A stretch of DNA of 64,000 nucleotides from Haloterrigena salifodinae (GTDB lineage Archaea; Halobacteriota; Halobacteria; Halobacteriales; Natrialbaceae), in assembly GCF_003977755.1 (NCBI RefSeq), contig NZ_RQWN01000003.1, positions 62,001 through 126,000 on the forward strand, in the 5' to 3' direction. The notes under the pieces are model-generated. The model saw nothing but the letters and a program-made list of their open reading frames with translations. It ran no database searches and had not been told where the DNA came from. Positions 8,429 to 11,992 of this stretch are shown in pieces (position 1 is the stretch's first letter; each line of letters starts with the position of its first letter). The position numbers and the translations under genes were made by a program.

Positions 8429-8767
8429 CCCTCGCTCGTCCCACTCGCGACCGATTGAATCTAGGTGTCTGGTTCTCGCGAAAACTGATTAGAACGAAGA
8501 CCGTTCCACCGTTGTAACCGCGAAACGAGGCGTGAGTGGTACGAAATCGGACACCCTACCGCGTCTCGCATCGGTCACGGAACCGAGCAGTTCGAACGCC
8601 GGACGGTCCGACCGGTGACGACGGACGAGGGACCGGATCCGCCGGCACGGTCGACTCGGCTCGAACATCGCGGCTGCGACCGCCGTTCAACGGGTGAAAT
8701 AGTTCAGGGCCCGTCGAACCGACGCAGAATGAGTCTATGGTGAATGATAACAAACATCGCACTGGGT
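8429..8767. other. Intergenic region, no gene seen
   Basis: About 340 bp between the divergent regulator and exported-protein genes. It contains only short ORFs lacking family features. The region just before ATG 8768 is relatively AT-rich (TGAATGATAACAAAC) but I see no clean TATA box at the standard distance. Confidence 0.4.
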
Positions 8768-9160
8768 ATGGACCGAAGAAAACTCCTGAAAGGCGCGGGC
8801 GCCCTCGGAGCGGCGCTCACCGGCCTCGGTGGCGCGTCGACCGCGGCGGGTCGACACAGGTACCCGTCGGTACGGATCATCAACACGAACGAACCGCTTC
8901 GAGGAGGCGAGTGGTTCCGCCTCACGGCACGGATCACGAATCACGGATCCGCGCGACTGCGCGGGAACGCACGGCTGATCGTCGGTAACGATCCGGATCA
9001 AGTCGATAGTCGGTACGTGTCCCTCGCGTCGAACCAGAGCACCACTGTGACGCTCGGCTACAGGACCTACCCGGTTCAGACGAGGGACGTGTTCCCGGTC
9101 CGGGTCAGGTGCGAGAACGAGTCCGATTCTCGGATCATCAGCGTCGCTCCGGCGCCGTGA
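8768..9160 (+). CDS. Tat-exported small beta-sandwich protein, function unknown
   Basis: A 130-aa protein starting MDRRKLLKGAGALGAALTG, a clear twin-arginine signal with a hydrophobic stretch to about residue 25. I use ATG 8768 rather than the upstream in-frame ATG 8744 because it places RR near the N-terminus. The mature ~100 residues (VRIINTNEPLRGGEWFRLTARITNHGSARL) look like a CARDB or Ig-like beta-sandwich used in archaeal surface proteins. No catalytic motif is visible. A broken secreted lipase follows 100 bp downstream. Confidence 0.75.
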   Translation: MDRRKLLKGAGALGAALTGLGGASTAAGRHRYPSVRIINTNEPLRGGEWFRLTARITNHGSARLRGNARLIVGNDPDQVDSRYVSLASNQSTTVTLGYRTYPVQTRDVFPVRVRCENESDSRIISVAPAP

Positions 9161-9224
9161 GTCGGCCGCATTGACCCCGACGACCGTCCCGGTTCGATTC
9201 TTTCGTACGGCCGGACCGCGATGA

Positions 9225-10102
9225 CGGTACCGATCTACCACTTCGGACACCGGAGTGTACCTGCACGCCTGGTACGGGGATTCGGCCGCGACGGCGATCG
9301 GCAGTGCCGGACTCGTCGGCGCGTCGATCGAGGGGTCATCCTCGGCATCGGGCTTTACCGGCTGCGACGACTGGCTGGACGCCCCCGCGGAGTATCCGGA
9401 GATCGACCTCACCAGCAGCAATCCGACGGCGCCGAACGTCGACGACCTCGAGGACGACCCGGTCGTCGTCTTCGTCCACGGCTGGCTCGGCCGCGAGACC
9501 AGCACCGATCAGGCCTACACCCTCGAGCAAGCGTTCGAGGAGGCCGAATACGACGGCCGCGTCGTCGCCACGTCGTGAGCTTCGGATACCCTCAACTACT
9601 GGAAGGCCGAGGGGACGACCGAGACGGCCGGGCGGCGCCTGGCATCGTGGCTGGCGACCGACCGCATCGACCTCGATGAGACGACGGTTCGACTGGTCGG
9701 GCACTCACTGGGCGGCCGGCTCTGTCTCGAGGCGCTGTCGGTACTGGGCGACGACGCGACCGTCGACAGCGTTGCGCTGGTCGGGGCGGCCGACGACGAC
9801 AACTCGGTCTGTACGGACGGCGAATTCGCCTCCCGTATCGAAACCGGCGCCGACGCGGTCTTCAACTATCACTCCGAGAACGACGACAGCGTCTGTTACG
9901 GCTACGAGATTCAGTCGCTCTCGAGCGGACTGGGTTGTGGCGGTGCCGACTGCAGCGGCGGCTGGATCACGACGACAGCGGGACGACGCCGGACAACGAC
10001 ACCGACGTGGATGTGACCGACACCGTCGGCGACCACTGTGCGTATATCAAGCCGGCGGTCGGCTGCGTGCCGCAGATGGTCGAGGACTTCGAGTCCCAGT
10101 GA
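9225..10102 (+). pseudogene. Decayed secreted alpha/beta-hydrolase (lipase-like)
   Basis: Translation from about 9255 gives HAWYGDSAAT then PVVVFVHGWLG, the oxyanion HG motif of a lipase. A TGA at 9576-9578 interrupts the frame where a tryptophan (TSW-ASDTLNYW) would be expected. The same frame then resumes with the nucleophile elbow GHSLGG near 9704 and a Cys-rich loop. Near 9963-9967 a single base is missing; the reading continues in another frame as HDDSGTTPDND...CAYIKPAVG to the stop at 10100. The signal peptide and first residues are also absent (TGA at 9222-9224). Three independent lesions make a functional product unlikely. Confidence 0.85.
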
Positions 10103-10477
10103 CGTCCATGCGACAGCCGCTGTTTCTACGAGAGACGCGAGTAGTCAGTTCGGTACAACTGCGTACAGAAGGCGGCTCGAAAGAGATCCGGATGAAATCA
10201 CGTGTTCCGCTATCGGGCGGAGACGCCGAATAGATTCGTTCCCTGGATTACGAAGAGTCCGACTCGCGCGGCCGCGGCGCTATTCTGCGAACCCGACTCG
10301 AGGATCGTCCGCGTTCGATCGTCCGTTGCTCGAACCGCGTCCCCGAACGGCCCGGAGAGGCGTATACAACGGCGAACGGGGTATCGTTTCAATTTTGCAA
10401 CGATATGGTAGAGAGTTAATTATTGCTGTGTGGCTGTCAATAACAGAATACGAAATTATCATCTGCCCAATTGCGTC
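10103..10477. other. Intergenic region upstream of the curlin-like gene
   Basis: About 375 bp. The last 80 bp are AT-rich, with a TATA-like AGTTAATTATT near 10412-10422. This would give a leader of roughly 30-40 nt before ATG 10478. Nothing else is recognisable in the region. Confidence 0.45.
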
Positions 10478-11992
10478 ATGGCTGACAATCACGGAAATCA
10501 GGACGGACTGAAGCGAAGAGGCTACCTCAAAGGAATCGCAGCGACCGGACTCGGTGCCGGCGCCCTCGTAACGGGTACCGGCCGTTCACACGCGGACGCG
10601 GACGGCGCCCGCGACGCCGACGGCGACAGCGTGTATCTGGTCTTCGGAGCCGACTCGTCCGAAGCCGATCTCGACTCATGGGTCGAAGCGCACAAGGACG
10701 AGATCGCCGCGGAGTCCCAGGACTCGGCCGCGCAGGTCATCCAGTATCAGGACGTCTCCCAGCTCAACGTCTCCCAGCAGGGCAACGCCGTCAGCATCGC
10801 GATCGACGGCGGCGAGGCGACGGCGGCGCAGCAGGCCGACCAGAACAATACCAACACCCAGTCCGGGAGCGCCGAATCGGTAGCCGTCAAGGAGGAGACG
10901 ACCGACTGGACGTTCACCGGCGTCGGGCAGGCGTACGTCATCTTTGCCGAGGAGACCGAGTGTCGGGAGTTCACCGGCTTGGTCGTCGGCGAGGACGCCT
11001 ATCAGAGCGAGCAATCGGCCGAGGCGACGATCGATCAGAGCCAGGAGGTCGACCAGTACAACTACAACAGCCAGAACACCGCGGTCGCGCTCGCAGCGAA
11101 CGGGAGCCGATCGCGGGCGTACCAGCGCAGTTCGCAGACGAACGAGAACTACCAGCACGCCGACGCCGTCGCGGCGAACATCGGCGACGGCGACCGTCAA
11201 GAGGCCGACGCGTCGGTCGAGCAATCCCAGACGGTCTCGCAGCTGAACGTCAGCGAACAGGGCGTCGCCATCGCGATCGCCGTCGGCAGCGGGAGCGTCG
11301 CGGAGGCGTTCCAGGTGAGTTCGCAGGGTAACCTGAACGAACAGGTCGCCGACGCCACCGCGATCGACTTCGATTCGAAATCCGTCGACGAAGTCACCGC
11401 CAGCGCCGACATGGTCGGCTCGGTTTCGGACGAGAAGCTGACCCGCTCGAAAGCCGGAGCGGAGCAGTCGAACGCACAGGCGGCGTCGGCCGACGTCACG
11501 CAGGTACAGAGCGTCGGGCAGGAGAACATCAACCTGCAGAACGCGGCCATCGCCGTCGGGATCGACGACAGTCAGGCGACAGCCCGACAGGAGAGTTACC
11601 AGGGGAACTTCAACGCGCAAGTCGCGTCGGCGGAGGCGCTGAACGTCGACAAATCCCACTGCAGCACGAATTCGGTGGTGACTGGGACGGACGAGAACGG
11701 CGACGAGTCGTGGGCGGTCGCCTACGAGACCGGGAACGGCGAGAGTTCCCAGCAAGTCGCCGAGGTCGACATCGACCAGTTACAGTTCGTCGAGCAGCTG
11801 AACGTCAACGAGCAGTTCGGCGCGGTCGCGTTCGCCAGGGACTGTGGCGACGCGGTGGCGGAGCAGCTGAACTACCAGGTGAACGAGAACGTGCAACTGA
11901 CCGAAGCGCGCGCGACTAACGAAGGCACCGGCGACGACAAGAACGGAAAGAAGAAGAAAAAGAAGAACGGAGGCGAGAAGCAGCGCTGTTAA
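10478..11992 (+). CDS. Tat-exported curlin-like repeat protein (candidate archaeal amyloid)
   Basis: A 504-aa protein starting MADNHGNQDGLKRRGYLKG, a Tat signal ending near residue 40 (the upstream ATG at 10430 would bury it). The mature chain has five spaced units, at residues about 89-128, 187-226, 248-289, 342-381 and 434-474. Each has the pattern V-x-Q-x-N-x-x-x-Q-x-x-A-[VI]-A then an A-x-x-Q...Q-x-N strand; examples are VSQLNVSQQGNAVSIAI, VSQLNVSEQGVAIAIAV and VGQENINLQNAAIAVGI. This resembles bacterial CsgA/CsgB curlin repeats (Q-x-G-x-x-N-x-A...Q). The C-terminus is a lysine-rich tail with six consecutive K, ending QRC. No Csg secretion genes are nearby. Surface fibre formation is inference from the repeat chemistry. 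Confidence 0.75.
   Translation: MADNHGNQDGLKRRGYLKGIAATGLGAGALVTGTGRSHADADGARDADGDSVYLVFGADSSEADLDSWVEAHKDEIAAESQDSAAQVIQYQDVSQLNVSQQGNAVSIAIDGGEATAAQQADQNNTNTQSGSAESVAVKEETTDWTFTGVGQAYVIFAEETECREFTGLVVGEDAYQSEQSAEATIDQSQEVDQYNYNSQNTAVALAANGSRSRAYQRSSQTNENYQHADAVAANIGDGDRQEADASVEQSQTVSQLNVSEQGVAIAIAVGSGSVAEAFQVSSQGNLNEQVADATAIDFDSKSVDEVTASADMVGSVSDEKLTRSKAGAEQSNAQAASADVTQVQSVGQENINLQNAAIAVGIDDSQATARQESYQGNFNAQVASAEALNVDKSHCSTNSVVTGTDENGDESWAVAYETGNGESSQQVAEVDIDQLQFVEQLNVNEQFGAVAFARDCGDAVAEQLNYQVNENVQLTEARATNEGTGDDKNGKKKKKKNGGEKQRC

Follow-up and report, generated by a model that had tools for sequence, protein, structure and literature searches.

What kind of extracellular protein is encoded at positions 10478–11992 of this DNA? 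The window (the whole stretch analysed, 64,000 nucleotides of a Haloterrigena salifodinae contig) carries there a gene that a preliminary description had read as coding for a Tat-exported protein with five Q/N repeats resembling those of the curli subunits CsgA and CsgB. Whether that resemblance reflects kinship with curlin, and what such a protein might do outside a haloarchaeal cell, are the questions addressed here.

The gene and its product

The open reading frame starts with an ATG at 10478, ends with a stop codon at 11990–11992 and encodes a product of 504 amino acids; the same open frame has a further start, a GTG, at 10430. The features assigned are as follows, with the evidence for each in brackets.

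10478..11992, + strand: five-unit Q/N-repeat gene, entire, 504 amino acids, with Tat signal (open reading frame, family spread, dN/dS)
10478..10597, + strand: twin-arginine (Tat) signal region, KRRGYLKGIAATGLGAGALVTG (sequence; RRGYL motif recurrent in the clade)
10622..10697, + strand: conserved pre-repeat segment, DGDSVYLVFGADSSEADLDSWVEAH (columns Y53, F56, G57 and H72 conserved)
10724..10888, + strand: unit 1, half repeats Q95 and Q122 (unit HMM; unit alignment)
11018..11182, + strand: unit 2, half repeats Q193 and Q220 (unit HMM; unit alignment)
11204..11371, + strand: unit 3, half repeats Q255 and Q283 (unit HMM; unit alignment)
11483..11650, + strand: unit 4, half repeats Q348 and Q375 (unit HMM; unit alignment)
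11759..11926, + strand: unit 5, half repeats Q440 and Q467 (unit HMM; unit alignment)
11939..11989, + strand: Lys-rich C-terminal tail, KNGKKKKKKNGGEKQRC (Lys-rich in 14 of 15 motif-recognised Tat proteins)

The N-terminus, KRRGYLKGIAATGLGAGAL, carries a twin-arginine motif (KRRGYLKG) and a hydrophobic stretch, both read from the sequence and kept in the clade, in line with the Tat export described earlier. It is followed by a conserved segment starting DGDSVYLVFGAD, by the five units and by a Lys-rich tail containing KKKKKK; motif and tail both recur in orthologues. Tat export as such is ordinary in haloarchaea, where it accounts for 39–55% of secreted proteins (PMC2945643), and given that share it was dropped as an unusual feature. 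The six-lysine tail, which had been called unusual for haloarchaea, is real; it is specific to a clade and not a peculiarity of the window protein alone.

The protein is acidic and rich in Q/N and A, with Q and N together making up 17% of the frame compared with a median of 3.8% for long acidic ORFs within the window. Compared with five orthologues, the gene has an overall dN/dS of 0.20–0.46, and in every one of the five comparisons the units had a lower ratio than the remainder of the protein, indicating that the gene is under selection. Upstream of the repeat gene, positions 8744–9160 (+) encode a small protein that has a Tat signal and matches CARDB weakly. Between these two genes, positions 9221–10233 hold overlapping frames with no obvious intact gene; part of this region resembles an alpha/beta hydrolase by eye.

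The repeat unit

The pattern V-x-Q-x-N-x3-Q-x2-A-x-A, previously given for all five repeats, is exact in units 2–5 (at residues 191, 253, 346 and 438), while the copy in unit 1 (V93) has one mismatch, an S replacing an A. Shuffles of equal composition (2000) gave at most one match. The fuller repeat is built on a half repeat, Q-x-N-x3-Q, present in ten copies that form five pairs (residues 95/122, 193/220, 255/283, 348/375 and 440/467) with partners 27–28 residues apart; shuffled sequences contained a mean of 0.38 and a maximum of 3 such motifs. Within a unit, one half repeat is recognisably akin to the other (hhalign 70%, E 4e-5), and the unit HMM found five domains of 66–70 bits each in the window protein.

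Alignment of 210 units from 42 proteins gave a strictly alternating consensus, A.A.V.Q.Q.V.Q.N.N.Q..A.A.A.(DG)S.A.A.Q...Q.N.N.Q...A.A.N, in which several Q/N positions are invariant or nearly so and the residues between them are variable; position-specific invariant Q, N and A were also found across 20 aligned family members. Covariation within units peaks at offset 2, with a mean Z of 1.59; for offsets 1 and 3 the value is 0.47. This i,i+2 signal and the alternation of residues together point to beta strands with one face fixed. Given this signature and coils of ~27 residues, the fold we infer is, most simply, a stacked beta-solenoid. Neither of the two AlphaFold models reached a confidence from which a fold could be read. 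Same-column coupling between units is slightly above background, and adjacent units couple no more strongly than units two apart, so that an order of stacking is not supported by coupling; the strongest between-unit pairs lie at column 19 in units 2, 4 and 5, and these may be lineage effects. The non-repeat inserts between units 1 and 2 and between units 4 and 5 are conserved in the family alignment.

A family with a constant number of units

Of 125 Natrialbaceae genomes searched in six frames, 99 contain relatives, and these cover 26 of 29 genera. A profile search of 391 Halobacteria genomes was positive for 84; almost all of these are Natrialbaceae, the remaining few belonging to three other families. 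When the sampling was widened to the phylum, Natrialbaceae alone were positive. Plasmid records contribute further homologues, from Haladaptatus and Halomicrococcus, whose annotation is hypothetical or PGF-CTERM protein. The family is recognised by a YLVFGAD-like pre-repeat segment and five units by the unit HMM, and the window protein has both. A search for homologues with the same repeats, proposed in the preliminary description, recovered 81 distinct proteins, every one of which has exactly five units. The criteria for inclusion, a frame of 400 residues or longer and four or more half-repeat motifs, do not in themselves impose five units.

The viral collections scanned yielded no relative, and no entry in Pfam, NCBIfam or PDB matches the family by sequence. 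A search of the openly licensed literature turned up no report of proteins of this five-unit kind in haloarchaea, nor any on haloarchaea and functional amyloid or on Haloterrigena and curli. The family is unnamed, and by these searches its unit and gene arrangement are new for what is probably a repeat-built extracellular beta protein.

A maximum-likelihood tree places 17 Tat/Lys-tail proteins, the window's included, apart from 64 Sec-type proteins, a split supported at 100/100. One of the 17 (L088) is cut off before the signal, and its fuller copy (L063) carries RRGYLKG; another Tat-branch protein (L014) carries RRGYLSG. The motif identifies 15 Tat proteins, of which 14 have the Lys-rich tail, the exception being the Haladaptatus member, which has the Tat motif and is tail-less. 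Thirteen Sec-branch members have a PGF motif at the C-terminus, two of them annotated as PGF-CTERM sorting proteins, and these relatives are therefore placed at the cell surface. The window's genome also encodes a Sec paralogue (L035:9837-11351), 45% identical to the window protein, and contains 12 units in all (5 + 5 + 1 + 1). Four genomes of another family (f6: G685, G689, G696 and G697) have 14–17 units each; because this exceeds the 5–13 of Natrialbaceae, the repeat family may be expanded there.

Small one-unit genes at Sec-branch loci

Adjoining the Sec paralogue in the window's genome are two tandem divergent genes, either of which encodes a 117-residue protein that combines a Sec-type signal and a single unit. 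A small secreted Q/N gene lies upstream and divergent at 17 of 20 Sec-branch loci, each from another genome; in 13 of these the half repeat scores above 6 bits by HMM, and in the other four Q/N motifs were recognised by eye. No divergent small Q/N gene was found at any of 13 Tat-branch loci, and L063, of the Tat branch, has a convergent one. For this comparison Fisher's p is 1e-6, a value that overstates the evidence since the genomes are related. Seven further Sec-branch loci (L069–L075), mostly PGF-type or second copies, are without a Q/N-rich divergent gene.

The small proteins match the unit profile (hhalign 94%), and both half orders, h1-h2 and h2-h1, occur among them (shuffled rate about 1% or less). 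A column of units stacked one on another would readily account for such circular permutation. The window protein itself has no one-unit neighbour, and its putative link to the small proteins is through homology to the Sec paralogue only.

Two further arrangements were noted at these loci. Tandem arrays of three small divergent genes occur at L053:3374-5316, L043:3047-5445 and L052:4312-5441; the signal peptides they encode are almost identical, and the rest of the proteins has diverged. Beside the Sec paralogue, L035:13544-14176 (+), which lies downstream of the one-unit pair, encodes a predicted secreted protein of 210 residues, rich in Ser, Thr and Asp, with an internal repeat (WGTVIHETDAETGDTNVEVIVDADDDVS).

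Proposed role and alternative explanations

We tentatively favour, with slightly less than even confidence, a reading in which these proteins are structural solenoids, secreted or held at the cell surface, the Sec form acting with one-unit fibre subunits and the window protein being the Tat/Lys-tail form. Each unit of ~54 residues would consist of two beta-solenoid coils of ~27 residues, with Q, N and A at inward positions forming stacked ladders and the five units giving a ten-coil rod. In the Sec branch, the five-unit protein would probably have the divergently encoded one-unit proteins as its partners; these could stack on the same fold as subunits of a fibre or matrix, and the long protein could be their nucleator, cap or anchor. 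The window protein would be a related form exported through Tat, its Lys-rich tail perhaps serving as an electrostatic tether to acidic material at the surface, for instance S-layer glycans or extracellular DNA.

It is quite possible, if short of probable, that the solenoid never polymerises and is instead a monomeric surface protein, serving as an adhesin, a spacer or a ligand-binding rod. The small proteins would then be separate secreted proteins, soluble ligands or competitors. Five units in all 81 homologues and conserved non-repeat inserts suit one defined fold, and Tat export, in which folding precedes export, suits a stable monomer. However, the small proteins share the unit and adjoin the Sec paralogue at most loci, and the simplest reading of their circular permutation is that one-unit proteins complete one another by stacking. 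For the window protein, since it stands alone with no one-unit neighbour, the monomeric and the fibre reading come close in likelihood, the fibre reading slightly ahead.

Extended further, the fibre reading becomes the proposal, which we regard as doubtful, that haloarchaea make extracellular fibres of their own from two components that have no sequence kinship with curli: a five-unit Q/N solenoid as nucleator or anchor, and one-unit subunits forming the fibres, with the Tat/Lys-tail branch as a variant exported folded. If true, such a system would be a candidate for the amyloid-like matrix material of haloarchaeal biofilms. Biofilms of Haloferax volcanii are reported to show amyloid-like staining with Congo red and thioflavin T, for which a gene has only been suggested and no protein established (PMC4180959). 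That report concerns Haloferax; the present family was recorded in Natrialbaceae and, beyond them, in a small number of haloarchaeal families. As a concrete, genetically simple gene set, the family lends itself to a test for surface fibres in archaea, and it offers an example, independent of curli, of how Q/N ladder proteins arise.

It is improbable that the protein is a mostly disordered or low-complexity secreted protein, with a Q/N pattern that reflects composition and not a fold. An acidic sequence rich in Q/N and A would fit this explanation, as would the low pLDDT of both AlphaFold models (mean 27.4 for the full window protein, from an alignment of 2 sequences; mean 37.3 for units 2–3, from an alignment of 10 rows including internal repeats), but these values are uninformative because the inputs were 2 and 10 very similar sequences. 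Position-specific invariance of Q, N and A in the aligned relatives, purifying selection that is strongest within the units, and i,i+2 covariation are all unexpected of disorder and argue against it. A PDB sequence search with the window protein returned chance-level matches only and matched no solved structure.

Relationship to curlin

The curlin-repeat family of Pfam (PF07012, Curlin_rpt) matched neither the window protein nor any of its 19 aligned relatives; the positive controls, E. coli CsgA and CsgB, gave 1.4e-27 and 1.3e-24, respectively. The minimal curlin motif has been defined as x6QxGx2Nx10 (PMC3521004). The curlin spacing S-x5-Q-x4-N-x5-Q (core Q-x4-N-x5-Q) has no match in the window protein. 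In the comparison with curlin profiles that had been suggested as a check, the unit profile gave hhalign probabilities of 0.1–1.9% against CsgA, CsgB, their repeats and an archaeal PF07012 protein, at or below column-shuffled controls, whereas positive controls (curlin to curlin and curlin to archaeal curlin) gave 19–97%, the E. coli curlin repeats finding the archaeal PF07012 protein at 76%. The earlier statement that csg genes are not nearby held: no csg-like gene was found among the ORFs neighbouring 10478–11992 that were tested against Pfam, and CsgG (PF03783) is absent from the entire H. salifodinae genome, where it is not expected because the cell lacks an outer membrane.

Curlin membership (CsgA/CsgB, PF07012) was rejected on these negative Pfam, motif-spacing and profile tests, in which the positive controls worked. 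A divergent true curlin of the CsgA/CsgB family in an archaeon, which secretion, regularly placed Q/N, five repeats and strand-like alternation might suggest, is thus very unlikely, given the silence of PF07012, hhalign values no better than shuffled where E. coli curlin repeats reach an archaeal protein, and the missing curlin spacing and CsgG. What survives of the curlin likeness is a matter of design, namely the alternation, the fixed five units and the one-unit proteins beside the paralogue; the relationship to CsgA and CsgB does not.

Comparison with known systems

An amyloid-like extracellular protein of an archaeon is reported from the sheath of Methanospirillum (PMC10593813); it differs in belonging to the sheath of a methanogen, compared with a haloarchaeal five-unit Q/N protein. 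The functional amyloid FapC of Pseudomonas is a beta-solenoid of imperfect repeats with many conserved hydrogen-bonding residues (PMC12822426). A solenoid built of repeats is the design that the window protein, if so folded, would have in common with FapC. PDB sequences give no match to the window protein.

The window's genome itself encodes a genuine curlin-repeat protein (L036:994-1617 (+), G000:C2 around 945391; PF07012 E 1e-36), with 207 residues, a Sec-type signal and about nine 19-residue repeats (NDADVDQRNKAGVFQDGKY). Among 125 Natrialbaceae genomes it was found in only 4, each belonging to the same genus as the window, and its own genome is without CsgG. This protein and the window protein are both secreted, carry Q/N repeats and belong to the same genome, but the former has 19-residue repeats, is restricted to the genus and shows no profile similarity to the window family.

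From curli, the window family differs in having no detectable sequence relationship, in its coil (~27 residues, paired into 54-residue units, compared with ~22 in curlin) and in export, which would proceed without CsgG, by Tat or Sec directly to the outside of a one-membrane cell. The two are alike in being secreted, with a few Q/N repeats and alternating residues, in number (five repeats in E. coli CsgA, five units in the window protein) and in having genes for partner subunits together, in curli and, putatively, at loci of the window family. Although not a member of the curlin family by any test made, the window protein may work like curli.
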